NCBI GenBank assembly: GCA_902537215.1
Contig: CACBAM010000001.1
Location: 1-64,000 of the forward strand
Length of the DNA stretch: 64,000 nt
Reading direction: 5' to 3'
Source: an uncultured Alphaproteobacteria bacterium
GTDB taxonomy: Bacteria > Pseudomonadota > Alphaproteobacteria > Rhodobacterales > Rhodobacteraceae
In this document: piece by piece, positions 10,499 through 56,765 of the stretch
Numbering within the stretch: the first letter of the stretch is position 1
Layout of the letters: each line of letters begins with the position of its first letter
Program-made: the position numbers and the translations under genes
Notes under the pieces: model-generated
The model's database searches: none
The model's input: only the letters and a program-made list of their open reading frames with translations
Told to the model about the DNA's origin: nothing

Positions 10499-10699
10499 AC
10501 GCATTTTCCTTATTATTTAATTTCTCAAATTCAATGGTAACAAAAATTTTTCGTATTTTTAAAAAAACATTTAGGCGTAGCTATATATAGTTTAATTGAC
10601 TTGAAAAAAGGAATTTGTTTCGTTGGTATTTTGCGATACCATTAACCATCACTTTTAATAATTTTATTTAATATCAAAAGAAAATGGAAAAGAGTGCAA

Positions 10700-11065
10700 A
10701 TGAAAAATAAGGAAAAAGTTCTTAAGGTAGTGGAAGACTATATCAAAAGCGCATACGAATCTGATGGAGCTATGACCAGAAAAATATTCGATGATGACGC
10801 CAAAGTTACAGGTCATATTAACGGTAAGCTGATAAGACAGACGAAGGAGGCATGGGCAACATTCGTTGAAAAAAACATCCCATCACCGAAAGAACAAGGT
10901 AAATCTAAAGCTTACGAAATATTGATGATTAATGCCGGAGAAGAGACCGCTGTTGTAAAAGTAAAAAGTGAGTATATTAATATTATGTTCATAGATACGC
11001 TTTCGTTTCTCAGAGTCGATAACGAGTGGAAAATTTATAATAAGGTGTTTGAAGCAACCGACTAA
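10700..11065 (+). CDS. NTF2-like (lumazine-binding/DUF4440-type) protein
   Basis: 121 residues from ATG 10700, preceded by AAGAG. The sequence starts with a long helix (KNKEKVLKVVEDYIKSAYESDGAMTRK read in parts), then DDDAKVTGHINGKLIRQTKEAW, a strand pair with AVVKVKSEYINIMFIDTLSFLR, and ends WKIYNKVFEATD. This is the cone-shaped NTF2-like layout of the putative lumazine-binding family (PF12893). Function unknown. A hairpin (TGGTAT-6-ATACCA, about 10634-10651) lies in the upstream gap. Confidence 0.8.
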   Translation: MKNKEKVLKVVEDYIKSAYESDGAMTRKIFDDDAKVTGHINGKLIRQTKEAWATFVEKNIPSPKEQGKSKAYEILMINAGEETAVVKVKSEYINIMFIDTLSFLRVDNEWKIYNKVFEATD

Positions 11066-11087
11066 ATTTTAGAACGGAAAATTTTAA

Positions 11088-11495
11088 ATGAAATTTTTTT
11101 TTAATATTCTTTCCATATGCGCTATCTGCAGTTCTTTTGGAGCGTTTAAAGCAGTTGGTAATGAACTAGACGAGGTCATTTGTAATGCGATGAAAGGTAT
11201 GCAGGCGCAAGAAGAAAAAAAAATTCCTTATAATATAGGCGACTTCGAATTAATAGGGATTACCGTTGATTGTGAGGAAAAAGCTCTGATAACAGAAAAA
11301 AAACACATTCAGTATTCATTATCCGACTTTTCAGAGGATTTTAAGATTACTGCAACTAAAAATTGGAAAAACGCTAATTGTAAAAATATGATATTTAACA
11401 CTAACACAGGTTGGTCAACCACCCAAATTATAAAAGATACTAATAAAAAAGTAGTTCTAAAGTTGGAAGCAAATTTTGAAATTTGCTCTCAATAA
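11088..11495 (+). CDS. Exported protein of unknown function
   Basis: 135 residues. A signal peptide is plausible (KFFFNILSICAICSSFGAFKAVG, cleavage near residue 24). The mature part is about 110 residues with four cysteines (VICNAM, VDCEEK, NCKN, EICSQ), consistent with periplasmic disulfides, and a beta-rich C-terminal half. I recognise no family. It follows the NTF2-like gene by 22 bases. Confidence 0.6.
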   Translation: MKFFFNILSICAICSSFGAFKAVGNELDEVICNAMKGMQAQEEKKIPYNIGDFELIGITVDCEEKALITEKKHIQYSLSDFSEDFKITATKNWKNANCKNMIFNTNTGWSTTQIIKDTNKKVVLKLEANFEICSQ

Positions 11496-11545
11496 ATAAA
11501 AAAAAGAATTCGATCAACCAAACTACACAACACAAATTAGATTTA

Positions 11546-12667
11546 ATGAATAGTAAAAAGCTGGAAATACTAAACACTCAAGATGTTCTGTCTATGAAAG
11601 GAGAAGGATACTATTCACAAAAGACTGCAGGAGCTAAAACTGCCATAGATTCAATACAGGAAATTTTGGAAAAATCTGTAACTCCCCTTCCTAACAAGGA
11701 AATATTGAGGTTTGCAGATTATGGTGCAGCAGATGGAGGAACTAGTCAGGAACTCTGGTACAATTTGATAAACCTTATTAGAAGTAGGGGGGATGACAGA
11801 GTAATTGAGATAATTTACACTGATTTGGCTTCTAACGATTTCTCGACCCTCTTTAAGAAGATGCAGGGGATGCATGGAGAGAAAGAGCTAGCTTATCAAA
11901 AAATCTTTGATAATGTTTTTGTGCATGGGTGCGGTACTGGCTTCCATCAACAATTACTAGCAACAGACAGCTTATCCTTGGGCTTTTCCGCGACAGCTAT
12001 GCATTATGTTTCGGAAAAACCTTGTCAAATAAAAAATCACGTACATATGGTTGGAGCCGATATAGCAGAAAAAAGGCAGTTTATGGACCAAGCAGCCACA
12101 GATTGGGAGTCGATTCTCCTATCGAGGGCTAAAGAACTGGCATCAGGTGGACGCTTTGTATGCATGAATTTTGGAATTGATGAAAAAGGTCGTTATCTTG
12201 GCAACACGGGCGGACATTCAATGTTTGGTAAATTTAATCAGCATTGGAAAACGTACTTGGATCAAGGGACAATAACAAAAGAAGAATATATAAACACTAC
12301 TTTTGCCCAGCATTACAGAACGGTGGAAGAGTTTTGTGCGCCGTTTAATGATAAAATGTCTGAGGTTTCAAAAGCTGGGTTAAAGCTTTTATCATGCAGT
12401 ACAAAATTGACAAAATGTCCCTATCGTGAGACTTATGAAAATAATATTGGGAAGATGTCAAAAAAAGAGTTTGCTGACAGTCTTATTTCAACTACCCGGA
12501 GTTGGTCAGAGACGGTATTTAAAACCGCTTTATCTGATAGATGTGAAAATGAGAGCAACGAAATAATCGACTCTTTTTATGAAAATTATAGGGCAGAAGT
12601 TGAAAGAGACCCGGATGGTCATGCGATGGATTATATTCATATAATTATGGAAATTGAAAAGATTTAG
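11546..12667 (+). CDS. SABATH-type carboxyl O-methyltransferase
   Basis: 373 residues from ATG 11546; a TTG at 11483 would overlap the preceding gene. The order of motifs follows the plant salicylate/jasmonate/benzoate methyltransferase family (PF03492): GYYSQKTAGAKTAI at the N-terminus (SAM/carboxylate contact), FADYGAADGGTSQELW as motif I, IIYTDLASNDFSTLFK for the adenosine-binding acidic strand, and LGFSATAMHYVSEKP, matching the plant 'SSYSLHWLS' segment. SABATH enzymes methylate the carboxyl group of small acids or N-atoms of xanthines using SAM. Bacterial members are few and substrates for them are not established. Neighbours (SDR, cupin) could belong to one small-molecule pathway but this is speculative. 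Confidence 0.85.
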   Translation: MNSKKLEILNTQDVLSMKGEGYYSQKTAGAKTAIDSIQEILEKSVTPLPNKEILRFADYGAADGGTSQELWYNLINLIRSRGDDRVIEIIYTDLASNDFSTLFKKMQGMHGEKELAYQKIFDNVFVHGCGTGFHQQLLATDSLSLGFSATAMHYVSEKPCQIKNHVHMVGADIAEKRQFMDQAATDWESILLSRAKELASGGRFVCMNFGIDEKGRYLGNTGGHSMFGKFNQHWKTYLDQGTITKEEYINTTFAQHYRTVEEFCAPFNDKMSEVSKAGLKLLSCSTKLTKCPYRETYENNIGKMSKKEFADSLISTTRSWSETVFKTALSDRCENESNEIIDSFYENYRAEVERDPDGHAMDYIHIIMEIEKI

Positions 12668-12748
12668 TTTTTGTTGTTGTGGTTAAATTTATTTAGGTAG
12701 TAAAAGTGTTCAAAATTTTTATCTTTTTTAAAACAGGCCTTTTTTTTA

Positions 12749-13489
12749 ATGAATAAGGTTGCAATCGTTACAGGAGCTGGGACAGGGGTGGGGAAAGCCA
12801 CAGCTATTAAGCTTTCTGATGCTGGTTTTAGTGTTATTTTGATAGGGCGACGTAAAGATAAGTTAGAAGAAACAAAGGCAGTGTGTAGTGATCAAGCACT
12901 AGTATTTCCTATTGATGTTAGTAATGAGGCGGATGTAAACAAATGCTTTGAAATGATTAAGAAAAATTTTTCTCGTATCGACGTACTTTTCAATAATGCT
13001 GGTACGTTTCTTTCTTCAAAAACTATAGACGAAATAAAATTCAGTGAATGGAAAGAGGTTATTGAAGTCAATATTAATGGAATGTTTCTTTTCAGTAAGC
13101 ATGCGTTTTCGCTTATGAAAAACCAATCTCCCATGGGAGGCCGGATAATCAATAATGGAAGCGTTTCCTCTATAACCCCAAGACCTGGATCAATAGCATA
13201 TACCTCAACTAAACATGCGGTCACGGGAATGACAAAAAGTTTGGCGCTCGACGGAAGACCATTTAATATTGTTTGTAGCCAAATTGATATTGGGAACGCC
13301 GATACACCAATGACAGAGGGAATAAAGAAAGGAATAATTCAGGCAGATGGTTCCATTAAAAAAGAGCCTACATTCGATCCTGAGCATATAGCTGATGCAG
13401 TGTTACATTTAGTGGGTCTCCCCTTAGATACCAATATTCTTAATATGACAATCATGGCTAGTAATATGCCCTTTATAGGGAGAGGTTAA
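12749..13489 (+). CDS. Short-chain dehydrogenase/reductase
   Basis: 246-residue classical SDR. TGAGTGVG (residues 8-15) binds the nucleotide, with RR at 34-35 following the second strand, which favours NADP(H); NNAG is at 82-85 and the catalytic set is S138, Y151 and K155 (YTSTK). It oxidises or reduces an alcohol/ketone of unknown identity. It lies 81 bases after the SABATH gene and 10 bases before a cupin gene, probably in one unit with the latter. Confidence 0.92.
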   Translation: MNKVAIVTGAGTGVGKATAIKLSDAGFSVILIGRRKDKLEETKAVCSDQALVFPIDVSNEADVNKCFEMIKKNFSRIDVLFNNAGTFLSSKTIDEIKFSEWKEVIEVNINGMFLFSKHAFSLMKNQSPMGGRIINNGSVSSITPRPGSIAYTSTKHAVTGMTKSLALDGRPFNIVCSQIDIGNADTPMTEGIKKGIIQADGSIKKEPTFDPEHIADAVLHLVGLPLDTNILNMTIMASNMPFIGRG

Positions 13490-13499
13490 AAAACACAAA

Positions 13500-13799
13500 A
13501 TGCAAAGAAAAAAAGCTAGTGCAAATATTCAAATAGATAATGAAAGAATAAGGGTAACAGAATATTCATTCAATAGAAATGAAGAAACAGGGTTTCATAT
13601 ACACCAATGGGACTACGTGGTTATTCCGCAAACTAACGGCCAATTATTGCTAATTGATCATAATGAGGTTGAAACAACCACTACCCTTATAAAAGGAAAA
13701 CCTTACTACAGAAATGCAGGTGTATCGCATAATGTAGTTAACAACGGTAAAGAAAAATTAGTTTTTATAGAGGTAGAGATAAAAGCTCATTCAATTTAG
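13500..13799 (+). CDS. Small cupin-domain protein
   Basis: 99 residues. The cupin signature is reduced but visible: EETGFHIHQWDYVVIPQTNGQL (histidine pair in F-H-I-H) and LIKGKPYYRNAGVSHNVVN with the C-terminal motif histidine. Likely co-transcribed with the SDR gene immediately upstream. Enzyme or ligand-binding role not determinable. Confidence 0.8.
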   Translation: MQRKKASANIQIDNERIRVTEYSFNRNEETGFHIHQWDYVVIPQTNGQLLLIDHNEVETTTTLIKGKPYYRNAGVSHNVVNNGKEKLVFIEVEIKAHSI

Positions 13800-13816
13800 A
13801 AGTTTATATAGCTATT

Positions 13817-13830
13817 AAATACTAGTATTT
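13817..13830. terminator. Possible terminator between convergent genes
   Basis: A perfect 14-base palindrome AAATACTAGTATTT is followed on the plus strand by TGCTTTTTG and sits midway between the convergent cupin and NIPSNAP-like-sized genes. It is AT-rich and weak, so termination is only suggested. Confidence 0.3.
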
Positions 13831-13860
13831 TGCTTTTTGAATTCTATTTGCGAGACCCTT

Positions 13861-14187
13861 TCAGAAATAAACATCATGTAAAATAACACCTCTGTTTGAA
13901 AATAATTTCTGTGGTATTTCAGTCTTATTGAACCGTTGTTCTGCTTCCCTGAAGAGTAGTTGACAGTCTACAAAAGCTTTTTCATCCGTATATTCCCACA
14001 GATTACCTAATCGTTGAATGCCATCTTTATTGAAAACTTGACTAACTGTTTGTCTTATAGCTCCTGCTTTAGCGAATTTTGATTGCATGTCTAGCACCAC
14101 CTTTTGCCATTCTTCTCCTCCCACTATTAGATCACTCCTCGATTGGAAATCTTGGGTTATATAACTCATAATTTTGGACTTGATCAT
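13861..14187 (-). CDS. Uncharacterised 108-residue protein
   Basis: AAGGAG six bases before the ATG at 14187 gives a secure start. The protein begins IKSKIMSYITQDF, has a helix-rich middle (GGEEWQKVVLDMQSKFAKAG), a strand IRQTVSQVFNKDG followed by LGNLWEYTDEKAFVDCQ, and ends VILHDVYF. The size and strand/helix alternation resemble small ferredoxin-like dimeric barrels, but no family motif is certain. No export signal. Confidence 0.6.
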   Translation of the reverse strand: MIKSKIMSYITQDFQSRSDLIVGGEEWQKVVLDMQSKFAKAGAIRQTVSQVFNKDGIQRLGNLWEYTDEKAFVDCQLLFREAEQRFNKTEIPQKLFSNRGVILHDVYF

Positions 14188-24878: not shown

Positions 24879-26339
24879 ATGGATATTTCGAAGAAAAAAT
24901 CACGTCCCAAGGCAATTACTCCTAAAGGTTTTCGGGATAACTTTCATTCGTATCTCAAGAAAAGAGAGAAAGTTCTACAGAAAGTGAATAGGGTTTATGA
25001 ACTTTATGGATTTGAAAGACTTGAAACTCCTGCAGTTGAGACAGTCGATGCTTTAGGAAAGTTCTTACCAGACATAAACAGACCAAACGAGGGTGTTTTT
25101 GCCTGGCAAGATGAGAATGAATCTTGGCTTGCTTTGAGATATGATTTGACCGCACCTCTAGCAAGAGCCTTTTCTCAACATCGAAACACTTTGCACGTAC
25201 CATTCAAAAGATACAGCTTTGGACCTGTATGGAGAAATGAAAAACCAGGACCAGATAGATTTAGAGAGTTTTATCAATTTGATGCTGATATCGTAGGCAC
25301 TTCAAGTTTCATGGCAGATGCTGAAATGTGTTTTATTGTATTTGATGTCTTAAAAGAACTAGGGTTTTCTACTAGTGATTATTCTACAAGGATTAGTAAC
25401 AGAAAAATTCTTTCAGGATTATTTCAAGCTGTAAAATTAGAGGATGCCACAATTCTGAGTGATATTGAATTGGTAGTTTTTAGGGCCATTGATAAGTTAG
25501 ATAGACTTGGACTAGAAGGCGTCAAAAACCTTTTGGCCAAAGGAAGAACGGACAGCAGTGGAGATTTTACTGAGGGTGCCAACCTCAGTGCTTTTCAAAT
25601 CGATACCATAATTAGTTTTTTAAAAATAACAAATGATGACCCTTACAAGACCTTAGAAGAAATGAGGTATCTCATAGGGGGCTCTGAAATTGGACAACAA
25701 GGAATAAGTGAGTTAAGCAACATAACCGACACTTTGCTCTCAAAAGACATAGATAGTGTTTCATTCAAAATAGATCCCAGTGTTGTTAGAGGATTGGCTT
25801 ACTACACAGGAACAGTTTTTGAAACTGAGTTATCTACGGCTACTAGATCGCTAGGATCGATATCTGGAGGAGGAAGATATGATGATTTAGTAAGTAGATT
25901 TACTGGCCAAAAAGTACCCTCCACTGGGGTTTCAATTGGTATTGATCGTCTAGTATCTTATCTTTATGAAAGTGATGGTGATAATGAGAAAGGAGTTGTA
26001 GACGTTCTAGTAACTGTAATGGATAAAAACTTGATGAAACATTATATAAAAATTGCTACTGAAATGAGAGAAAATGGGATTAATACGGATTTATATGTCG
26101 GAAACCCTAAGGATTTTGGTAAGCAAATGAAGTATGCAGATTTGCGTGGTGCAGCGTTTGCCATAGTGGCTGGGACCAATGAAATTGAAGCGGATATAGT
26201 TCAAATTAAGGACCTTAAGCTGGGTAGCAAACTTGCAGATAACATTTCTACAAATGAAGAATGGAAAGAGCAACCAGCACAATTTCCTGTAAAAAGGGAA
26301 GCCTTGACAAAAAAAATCTTAGAATTACTCAAAAGATAA
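24879..26339 (+). CDS. hisS: Histidyl-tRNA synthetase
   Basis: 486 residues. Class II signatures: motif 1 region KGFRDNF/VYELYGFERLETPAVE, motif 2 FGPVWRNEKPGPDRFREFYQFDADIVG, the histidine-specific VRGLAYYTGTVFE, and motif 3 GVSIGIDRLVSYLYE, followed by the anticodon-binding domain from about residue 370. It charges tRNA-His. The gene ends one base before hisZ, so they are translated together, an arrangement typical of Alphaproteobacteria. Confidence 0.96.
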   Translation: MDISKKKSRPKAITPKGFRDNFHSYLKKREKVLQKVNRVYELYGFERLETPAVETVDALGKFLPDINRPNEGVFAWQDENESWLALRYDLTAPLARAFSQHRNTLHVPFKRYSFGPVWRNEKPGPDRFREFYQFDADIVGTSSFMADAEMCFIVFDVLKELGFSTSDYSTRISNRKILSGLFQAVKLEDATILSDIELVVFRAIDKLDRLGLEGVKNLLAKGRTDSSGDFTEGANLSAFQIDTIISFLKITNDDPYKTLEEMRYLIGGSEIGQQGISELSNITDTLLSKDIDSVSFKIDPSVVRGLAYYTGTVFETELSTATRSLGSISGGGRYDDLVSRFTGQKVPSTGVSIGIDRLVSYLYESDGDNEKGVVDVLVTVMDKNLMKHYIKIATEMRENGINTDLYVGNPKDFGKQMKYADLRGAAFAIVAGTNEIEADIVQIKDLKLGSKLADNISTNEEWKEQPAQFPVKREALTKKILELLKR

Positions 26340-26340
26340 G

Positions 26341-27465
26341 ATGTTGAAATCAAAAAAAGGGATTTTAAAACCTAAGTTAGACTCCGGTAATTTAGAATTG
26401 GAAATAGGGCGCATAGCCACAATCTTTAAAAAAGCTGGATTAAAGGAGATAAGTGTGCCTTCTCTTTTAAATTCATCAGACTTAGTTGATCTTTATGGTG
26501 AAGATTTAAAACTTCGGGCTTATACGACTTCTGATCCTGTAAGAGGCGAGCAGATTTTAAGGCCAGATTTTACTGTTCCAATTTTGTTGAAACATTTAAG
26601 AGGTAATTCTCATCGAGCTAAGTATTTTTACAGCGGTAACGTTTGGAGAAGACAAAATTTTAAGTCGATTATTCCAAATGAACAATACCAAATGGGTTTT
26701 GAATTATTTGATAGTAAAAAAACCAAATCAATCTCATCCGACGTTGAAGCATACTTACTTATTAATAAAATTTTGAGTAAATATAAAGTGAACTCAGTAA
26801 CAGGCGATGTGCAAGTATTAACAAGTGCTATCAATGATCTTGATATAAGTGATTATAAAAAGACTTCATTAAAAAGACACCTATGGCGACCAAAAAGATT
26901 TATGAGACTCTTGGATCTATACTCAAAGCAAAAAATTAGTGGTAGGAATAATCATTTATTCAAAAGTGCTAATTTATTACTATGGAAAGAAAAATTACTT
27001 GGAATTGAAAGTTTTTACGGTGTTAGAACCAAGACGGACATAAAGGAAAGAATTGAAATTTTAGAGGAAGAGTTATCACAGAATTTAATTGCCAGTTCTG
27101 AAAAAAATTTTTTATTAAAATTAATGAGATTCCATTCGAGTCTAAGGCAAGCGCCAAAGAGCATGTTATCCCTCACAATGGTTGGAGACACTTTCAGGAA
27201 AGCTATAGAGAATTTTGAGCATAGAGTTGAGCTCTTAAGTGAGCATATTGATACGAAAACAGTAAAATTTCAAGTTATTTACGGTTTGACAACTCTTGAA
27301 TATTATGACGGTTTTGTTTTCGGATTTCAGTTTGATCATGGAAAGTATCCACCAATCGCTCAAGGTGGGAGGTACGATAGCTTATGCAGTACCTTATCAA
27401 AAAAGGGAAAATCAATTTGTGCTATAGGAAGTATGTTGAGAATGGATTTTTTAAGAAAAACTTAA
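26341..27465 (+). CDS. hisZ: ATP phosphoribosyltransferase regulatory subunit
   Basis: 374 residues resembling the HisRS catalytic core without an anticodon-binding domain: LRPDFTVPILLKHL, FYSGNVWRRQNF, EQYQMGFELFD, YYDGFVFGFQFD and AQGGRYDSL are the HisZ versions of the class II motifs. It activates the short-form HisG, and the next gene is exactly that. Together they catalyse and control the first step of histidine synthesis. Not a second HisRS, since the histidine-specific and anticodon-binding parts are absent. Confidence 0.92.
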   Translation: MLKSKKGILKPKLDSGNLELEIGRIATIFKKAGLKEISVPSLLNSSDLVDLYGEDLKLRAYTTSDPVRGEQILRPDFTVPILLKHLRGNSHRAKYFYSGNVWRRQNFKSIIPNEQYQMGFELFDSKKTKSISSDVEAYLLINKILSKYKVNSVTGDVQVLTSAINDLDISDYKKTSLKRHLWRPKRFMRLLDLYSKQKISGRNNHLFKSANLLLWKEKLLGIESFYGVRTKTDIKERIEILEEELSQNLIASSEKNFLLKLMRFHSSLRQAPKSMLSLTMVGDTFRKAIENFEHRVELLSEHIDTKTVKFQVIYGLTTLEYYDGFVFGFQFDHGKYPPIAQGGRYDSLCSTLSKKGKSICAIGSMLRMDFLRKT

Positions 27466-54602: not shown

Positions 54603-56765
54603 ATGAATAGTGAGGAAAGTTTTTTTGAAAGAGACTTAGTTCTCATCGGAGCTGGGCATACAAATTGTCTGTTTTTGAAAATGTGGGCAATGAAGAGTAA
54701 TCCTTCTCTTCGAGTGACTCTAATAAATCCAGATCCTATTTCCTCTTATACCGGTATGCTACCTGCTTTAGTAGCTGGTTTATGTGCTAAATCAGATGCT
54801 CAAATAAATTTATTCAGTTTGTGTAGAGCTACAGGAACAAGATTAATAATCGATACTGTTAAAAAAATCGATAAGAAAAAAAGTCAAATTATGTGTAAGA
54901 CAGGGAGGATTGTAAACTTTGATTTACTATCCATAAATATTGGATCTAACTCTGTCCCTCTGATAAATGGGTTTAAAAAATTTGGATGCAGTGTTCGGCC
55001 TCTAGCTTCATTTCAAGAGCGTTGGGAAAACTTTTTGGAGTCCATTAATGAAAAATCGTCTCTGGTTATTTGTGTTATAGGGGGAGGCCTAGCATCAATT
55101 GAGTTGAGTTTCGCGATGGATATTCGATTGAAAGAGACTGAATTAGAAGATTTTAAGATTAAAATTTTTGAAAGTGGTAAAGCTTTTGAAAAATTGAGCC
55201 CAAATCAGCAAAGATATTTAAAAACTAAAGCCAAGCTACGAAAAATTGAAATAATTGAAAACACAACAATAAAAGAAGTTTCAAATAATGGATTAGTACA
55301 AAAAAACGGCAACTTGGTTCATGCAGATTTTATTATTTCCTGTATTGGACCTCAACCAAATGATTTGTTTAAAAAGTCAAAAATTGAAAATAAAGATGGT
55401 TATGTATGCGTAGACGAAACGTTGAGGGTCATAGGCTTTCAAAATGCGTTTGCAGTTGGCGATTGTGCACATTTCCCCTCTGAAGCGGTAGATAAGTCAG
55501 GAGTTTATGCTGTCAGGCAAGCACCAATTCTTCACAAAAACATTCTTAAGTTTCTTAAGAACGAGCAGCTAATCCGATTTAAACCTCAAAGTGATTATTT
55601 AAAGCTCATTGTCTATGAGGATGCATCTGCGATCTTCCTTAGGAATGGCGTTGCCTTTTCTGCTAAGTGGGTTTGGTCATTAAAAAGTTTCATCGATAAA
55701 AAGTTTATAACAAATTTCAAAAAACTTAGTGATATGGTCACTAAAGATCTGGAAAACGCCCAAAGCAATAGCCAAAAAATGCTCTGTGGTGGCTGTGGAT
55801 CAAAAGTCGGAAATGTTATTTTGGAGTCTTCATTAAGAAAATTATCAGATCCTGGCTCAAAACATATTGTTAGTGAAATAGGAGATGATGCAGCAATTAT
55901 CAAATTTAACTCCTCGTTTCAAGCTTTGACGACAGATCATCTGAGGTCATTCACAAAGGATGTATGGCTTCAAAGTAAAATTACAGCGCTTCATGCGTTG
56001 GGAGATATTTGGGCAATGGGATCCAATCCCGAAATCGCTCTCACGAATATTATTATTCCAGAGTCCTCAAACGAGATACAAAAGCGAACAATCGAAGAAA
56101 TTATTGATGGCGCAAATAGTGTTTTTGGTGCTGAGGGAGTAAAGATAGTAGGAGGCCATACCTCTTTAGGAAAAGAGATAGTGATTGGTTTCACGTTGGG
56201 AGGTTTCTCAAAAAAGCAACCTAAGACTGTTGATAAGGCATGTGTAGGAGATCAAATAATCTTAACCAAACCATTAGGCTCTGGAGTTCTTTTGGCCGGA
56301 GAAATGCGTTTTGAAGGTGAAGGGCAGCATCTTAAAAATCTTTTTGATGCTATGTGTCAGTCACAAAGTTCTATAGCTAAGGTGCTAAGCAAAGTAGCAA
56401 ACTCAATGACTGATATAACTGGTTTCGGCTTGGCCGGTCACCTTCTGAACATAGTTTCAAAGTCTAACGTAGGAGCAAAACTATTTTTGGATCAGGTACC
56501 TGTATACCCTGGCGCCAAAAATCTAATAGCCAAGGATATCAGATCTTCCATTTTCGAGAATAATTATATGTATACTGAGAAAATGATTATTAAAACGACA
56601 GCGAATACAGATATCCTTTTTGATCCCCAAACATCTGGTCCACTACTAGCTACTGTCCCCAAAGACAAAGTAAAGGGCGTCATTGCTGCTGGAGAAGATT
56701 TTGGTTTTCATTGCAAAGTTATAGGAGAACTTACAAATGGCAAACCCTATATAGAAGTATTATAG
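54603..56765 (+). CDS. selD: Selenide, water dikinase fused to an NADH-dehydrogenase-like flavoprotein domain
   Basis: 720 residues, two parts. Residues about 10-370 form a pyridine-nucleotide-disulfide/Ndh-like oxidoreductase: LVLIGAGHTNCLFLKMWAM binds FAD, VICVIGGGLASIEL binds NAD(P)H, and NAFAVGDCAHFPSEA is the second FAD motif. From about 392 the SelD domain follows: CGGCGSKVG with C398 and K401 at the positions of E. coli SelD C17 and K20, then SEIGDDAAII, LTTDHLRSF, GHTSLGKE and DITGFGLAGHLL. It makes selenophosphate from selenide and ATP; the oxidoreductase part may generate or deliver reduced selenium. It faces selU, which uses the product. Confidence 0.94.
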   Translation: MNSEESFFERDLVLIGAGHTNCLFLKMWAMKSNPSLRVTLINPDPISSYTGMLPALVAGLCAKSDAQINLFSLCRATGTRLIIDTVKKIDKKKSQIMCKTGRIVNFDLLSINIGSNSVPLINGFKKFGCSVRPLASFQERWENFLESINEKSSLVICVIGGGLASIELSFAMDIRLKETELEDFKIKIFESGKAFEKLSPNQQRYLKTKAKLRKIEIIENTTIKEVSNNGLVQKNGNLVHADFIISCIGPQPNDLFKKSKIENKDGYVCVDETLRVIGFQNAFAVGDCAHFPSEAVDKSGVYAVRQAPILHKNILKFLKNEQLIRFKPQSDYLKLIVYEDASAIFLRNGVAFSAKWVWSLKSFIDKKFITNFKKLSDMVTKDLENAQSNSQKMLCGGCGSKVGNVILESSLRKLSDPGSKHIVSEIGDDAAIIKFNSSFQALTTDHLRSFTKDVWLQSKITALHALGDIWAMGSNPEIALTNIIIPESSNEIQKRTIEEIIDGANSVFGAEGVKIVGGHTSLGKEIVIGFTLGGFSKKQPKTVDKACVGDQIILTKPLGSGVLLAGEMRFEGEGQHLKNLFDAMCQSQSSIAKVLSKVANSMTDITGFGLAGHLLNIVSKSNVGAKLFLDQVPVYPGAKNLIAKDIRSSIFENNYMYTEKMIIKTTANTDILFDPQTSGPLLATVPKDKVKGVIAAGEDFGFHCKVIGELTNGKPYIEVL

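Follow-up and report, generated by a model that had tools for sequence, protein, structure and literature searches.

Enzymes of the SABATH family are best known from plants, where they make methyl salicylate and caffeine. To our knowledge, their study has been almost confined to plants; bacterial members were known before (FAMT). What, then, is a protein of this kind doing in an alphaproteobacterium of the Rhodobacteraceae, where did it come from and what might it methylate? These questions are raised by a 373-residue methyltransferase encoded in the window, that is, the whole stretch of 64,000 nucleotides analysed here. All motifs quoted in the preliminary description were found again within its open reading frame (Table 1). 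An alternative in-frame TTG at 11483 would yield 394 residues, but we preferred the ATG at 11546 as the start because relatives align from it.

Using a Pfam profile search, we found that the protein matches PF03492 (SABATH, Methyltransf_7) with an E value of 8e-28; the score of 98 bits exceeds the Pfam cut-off of 29.8. The match covers residues 50-370 of 373 and profile positions 12-333 of 335, nearly the whole length. This search had been set beforehand as the refutation test of the proposed family membership, and it placed the protein inside PF03492. In a phmmer search of PDB sequences, the top match was the fatty acid O-methyltransferase (FAMT) of Mycobacterium marinum (3.7e-22), the best plant SABATH enzyme following at 9.5e-7; no NCBIfam model matched the protein. 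An AlphaFold model built from a 49-sequence alignment (pLDDT 89, pTM 0.88) has the SABATH fold, a Rossmann core with a helical cap. When the model was searched with Foldseek, the 29 best PDB matches were all SABATH enzymes (E 1.2e-25 to 6.1e-16), with the first non-SABATH methyltransferase a gap behind them at 2.8e-9. Together, the profile, phmmer and Foldseek results therefore establish, at the level of both sequence and fold, that this is a true member of the SABATH family. It is the sole PF03492 match in its own 2.1-Mb genome, and 14 control genomes contained none. From sequence and model, the protein is predicted to act as a SAM-dependent small-molecule methyltransferase, belonging to a bacterial branch found mainly in marine alphaproteobacteria.

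Table 1 Features of the methyltransferase gene and its neighbours, in window coordinates; residue numbers refer to the methyltransferase.
Feature	Position	Strand	Basis or remark
NTF2/lumazine-binding-like protein, upstream	10694..11065	+	PF12893, E 1.5e-25
Small protein with possible signal peptide (sequence reading), upstream	11088..11495	+	position conserved in genus
SABATH-fold SAM-dependent methyltransferase (activity predicted), 373 aa	11546..12667	+	PF03492, 98 bits; pLDDT 89; Foldseek
N-terminal substrate/SAM motif YYSQKTAGAK, within residues 22-32	11612..11641	+	alignment with SAMT 1m6e
Motif I core DYGA, residues 58-61, predicted SAM binding	11717..11728	+	D58 = SAMT D57
Motif DLASNDF, residues 93-99, predicted SAM binding	11822..11842	+	D93 = SAMT D98
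SATAMHYVS, residues 148-156	11987..12013	+	H153 at SAMT position 150; Y154 replaces Trp151
Subfamily signature FGIDEKGRYLGNTGGHSMF, residues 209-227	12170..12226	+	conserved across subfamily
Short-chain dehydrogenase/reductase (SDR)	12749..13489	+	PF00106, E 8e-48
Small cupin-like protein	13500..13799	+	PF07883, 20.1 bits; conserved in genus

We then considered the origin of the gene. In a maximum-likelihood tree, we compared relatives from alphaproteobacteria with FAMT and with three enzymes from plants, without algal or cyanobacterial sequences. The window protein falls inside an all-bacterial clade of 32 rows (support 100/99), while the three sampled plant sequences form a separate clade (100/99). 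FAMT pairs with a Novosphingobium plasmid protein (L150) outside the clade of the window protein. A second alphaproteobacterial PF03492 type (L002, L003, L004 and L016), which keeps the classic Gln at the position of Gln25 in the plant enzyme SAMT and has Gly at position 150, forms a clade of its own. The branching order of the deep clades is not fixed by this tree, in which branches are long and sampling is sparse. The label 'plant-like' given to the enzyme in the preliminary description thus had to be dropped: its nearest solved structure, by sequence and by fold, is the mycobacterial FAMT, and its clade is distinct from that of the plant enzymes. That the gene was recently acquired from a plant or alga, an idea invited by a family best known from plants, is very improbable given the strongly supported bacterial clade (in a tree without algal sequence), the ordinary GC content of the gene (0.38 against a window mean of 0.36) and the many diverged bacterial relatives; acquisition from plants is rejected by the tree. 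The branch is old, bacterial and apparently uncharacterised. Our literature search uncovered no report of a PF03492 enzyme from alphaproteobacteria, which is weak evidence, as most subscription papers lay outside the search.

Within the genus, 14 of 22 genomes, most of them incomplete, carry the methyltransferase, the other members being 69-94% identical. In samples that each include the window's own genome, PF03492 turned up in 14 of 298 genomes for the family, in 13 of 385 for the class and in 4 of 398 for the phylum; these last four genomes belong to the same class. A motif-based scan of 84,980 species genomes identified relatives at 304 loci. By title, nearly all of the best 80 are marine alphaproteobacteria, including records labelled SAR116, Pelagibacterales and Rhodobacteraceae, which bears out the marine origin proposed earlier. 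Some titles, such as Euryarchaeota (L083) and Porticoccaceae (L100), are probably mis-binned, since their loci share the alphaproteobacterial gene order. Genus orthologues are under purifying selection (pairwise dN/dS 0.08-0.15 by NG86 and 0.04-0.19 by YN00). No relative was found among 50,697 phage records, and only three plasmid records carry one. The best of these, on the conjugative plasmid pCB3171_3 of Rhizobium sp. CB3171 (L148), is 40% identical and sits between transposase genes, adjoining an FAD-dependent oxidoreductase.

To locate the active site, residues were mapped onto SAMT (1m6e) numbering by a MAFFT alignment of 123 sequences. The mapping is surer away from the C-terminus, where SAMT F347 corresponds to Y363 in the MAFFT alignment and to D362 in a HMMER alignment read by eye. 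The SAM-binding residues are kept (SAMT Y18, D57, D98 and F130 correspond to Y23, D58, D93 and F133), D58 being conserved in 122 of 123 sequences and D93 in all of them. The signature FGIDEKGRYLGNTGGHSMF aligns with the lid and pocket stretch L210-W226 of SAMT. Two of the residues that anchor the carboxylate are absent: Gln25 of SAMT is replaced by Ala30 (Ala in 114/123, Gln in 8/123) and Trp151 by Tyr154 (Tyr in 111/123, Trp in 7/123), while T27 takes the position of Ser22. The third anchor is kept as His153, at SAMT position 150 (His in 116/123), as in loganic acid methyltransferase (LAMT), where it is H162; SAMT itself has Met. These altered anchors look new, and the replacement of Gln and Trp implies that the branch handles its substrate unlike the plant carboxyl methyltransferases.

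What the changes mean for the chemistry can be read in two ways. In SABATH enzymes, carboxylic substrates are bound by a Gln, which is Gln25 in SAMT and Q38 in LAMT, and in LAMT simulations Gln, His and Trp all touch the substrate carboxylate (PMC10420828). The LAMT mutants H162A and W163F are nearly inactive, the activity of W163F being negligible (PMC10420828); with Ala30 and a Tyr at the position of Trp151, the latter at the site altered in W163F, the window protein offers counter-evidence to carboxylate esterification. Judging from the aligned residues, His and Tyr could still hold a carboxylate. Alternatively, the anchor replacement may reflect a SABATH-fold enzyme that methylates N, S or C in place of the carboxylate oxygen. 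Both substitutions are consistent across the branch. Caffeine synthases, which are SABATH enzymes, methylate N, and N-methylating members of the family match the model (6lyh, 2eg5 and 8uzd). Set against this are the retention of His153 and the transporter partner described below, which suggests a carboxylate ligand, though methylation elsewhere on the molecule is possible. We consider a shift of acceptor atom a real but lesser possibility.

Genomic neighbours offered further clues. In the window, the SDR gene starts 82 bp downstream of the methyltransferase on the same strand, a position kept in the genus loci, and the next gene begins 10 bp after it. The preliminary description had pointed to SDR and cupin genes downstream; the SDR stands, whereas the second protein is only cupin-like because its score lies below the Pfam cut-off of 27.2, and the arrangement is genus-specific. 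The order NTF2-like protein, small possibly secreted protein (no Pfam match), methyltransferase, SDR and cupin-like protein is conserved within the genus and not outside it. An NTF2/lumazine-binding-like gene also adjoins the methyltransferase in another genus (L117). The SDR-cupin pair was set aside as the key partner, being conserved only inside the genus. When 10600-13900 was scanned for promoters and terminators, there were no more hits than in shuffled sequences, and the window contained no Rfam matches. Elsewhere in the window, a 720-residue protein (54603-56765, forward strand) with a PF07992 pyridine-nucleotide-disulphide oxidoreductase domain and AIRS domains (PF00586/PF02769) resembles a fusion of the SelD type (selenophosphate synthetase), and two adjacent forward-strand genes with histidyl-tRNA synthetase domains (24879-26339 and 26341-27465) are probably hisS and hisZ.

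Outside the genus, the recurrent partner of the methyltransferase (MT) is a TakP-type TRAP transporter, a linkage that looks new. Its genes adjoin the methyltransferase, or lie one gene away, in five arrangements from divergent lineages: convergent MT/DctM-Q-P with DctM nearest in Pelagibacterales-labelled SAGs; DctP-Q-M-MT in SAR116, often with gamma-glutamyltransferase and 3-hydroxyisobutyrate dehydrogenase; DctM-DctP-MT in Amorphus/Acuticoccus; MT-DctP-Q-M in G324/L127; and DctM-SDR-MT in L115 (gene calls in high-GC loci followed simple ORF rules). The TRAP proteins of these groups are only 44-57% identical to one another and therefore do not represent one recent cassette; the linkage may have been inherited from a single ancestral cluster. 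Five or more such neighbours would arise with a probability of about 1e-8 to 4e-5 if there were some 20 independent contexts with a chance of 0.4-2% each, both the neighbour rate and the number of contexts being our own estimates, set after the pattern had been seen. No TRAP gene lies beside the methyltransferase in the Rhodobacteraceae-type loci L116-L125 or in the window's genus. As many lineages thus have no adjacent TRAP gene, the link may cover only part of the family. Genes for gamma-glutamyltransferase and 3-hydroxyisobutyrate dehydrogenase recur beside the methyltransferase in L101, L132, L134 and other SAR116 loci, and in L054, L082, L091 and L093 related gamma-glutamyltransferase genes occur on its upstream side, together with acyl ligase and NMO genes.

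The best named PDB relatives of the linked solute-binding proteins are TakP and ketoacid-binding proteins. TakP holds Na+-pyruvate through Y100, Q156, R177, E214, W215 and E240 (PMC1839085). In four receptors from the arrangements (that of L115 was left out) and the one from the window's own genome, all six residues are kept, with conservative changes in Amorphaceae (D/F at two positions). The only TakP-type receptor of the window's genome has all the pocket residues and is encoded in a complete operon on another contig (C10). Other genomes have one to a few such receptors at an identity of at least 40%, and larger genomes carry many distant DctP proteins.

The TRAP linkage and the conserved 2-oxo-acid/Na+ pocket suggest that the enzyme acts on a small 2-oxo acid taken up by the cell, or on a derivative of one, rather than on salicylate or jasmonate. 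The methylation of small carboxylates, proposed earlier, is a plausible possibility. We propose, giving the idea about an even chance, that a 2-oxo acid imported by a TakP-type TRAP transporter is methyl-esterified on its carboxylate by the methyltransferase. In such a pathway, the transporter (on C10 in the window's genome) would import a small 2-oxo acid or a compound derived from one, and the methyltransferase would cap the carboxylate of this compound; the product would most likely be a methyl ester. His153 and Tyr154 would hold the carboxylate beside SAM in a reshaped pocket and, by analogy with other SABATH enzymes, neither a catalytic base nor a metal would be needed. In the genus, the SDR and the cupin-like protein would probably act on the same compound.

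Alternatively, the enzyme could methylate the carboxyl group of a fatty acid or lipid, as FAMT does, a reading we regard as rather unlikely. FAMT is the nearest solved relative, three lineages (L054, L084/L087 and L130) have genes of the PF04116 fatty-acid-hydroxylase family immediately next to the methyltransferase, and in other lineages an AMP-dependent acyl ligase lies beside it. However, FAMT is only about 22% identical to the window protein and retains the equivalents of Gln25 and Trp151, its pocket has W, M and N where the window protein has T150, F209 and F227, and in the tree it groups with the Novosphingobium plasmid protein.

Purifying selection, an altered substrate site and the recurrent association with a predicted importer of 2-oxo acids together make this branch, conserved in abundant ocean bacteria, an entry point to an apparently uncharacterised bacterial pathway of small-molecule methylation. 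It is also a source of distant sequences with which to test what residues of the active site determine the choice of substrate in SABATH enzymes. More speculatively, and with a low likelihood in our judgement, the branch could be a new functional class of SABATH enzymes working with a TakP-type importer, which would methylate the imported 2-oxo acid or derivative, possibly off the carboxylate, or make volatile methyl esters of the kind reported from Roseobacter cultures. If so, it would add an undescribed methylation step to marine carbon or sulfur cycling. When fed an analogue of DMSP, such Roseobacter cultures release methyl 3-(methylsulfanyl)propanoate, which was attributed to O-methylation by SAM in a paper that names no enzyme (PMC7934745).

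Among known systems, FAMT (PDB 5f2k/5f2n/5f2o; fold TM 0.81-0.86) is likewise a bacterial SABATH enzyme with a conserved SAM site, but has Gln154 where the window protein has His153. SAMT (PDB 1m6e) and the plant SABATH enzymes belong to the same Pfam family, share the order of motifs, the SAM-binding Y18/D57/D98 equivalents and the fold (TM 0.77-0.80), yet they are only about 17-18% identical to the window protein and form a separate clade. Besides the anchor changes, Tyr147 and Trp226 of SAMT are replaced by Thr150 and Phe227. LAMT (PDB 6c8r) shares the active-site His, whereas the window protein has Ala and Tyr in place of LAMT Q38 and W163, which contribute to carboxylate binding. Finally, the linked transporters are of the same type as TakPQM of Rhodobacter sphaeroides (receptor PDB 2hzk/2hzl) and keep its 2-oxo-acid/Na+ pocket where checked; their receptors are about 36-39% identical to TakP, and the partnership is seen in other genomes, outside the window.
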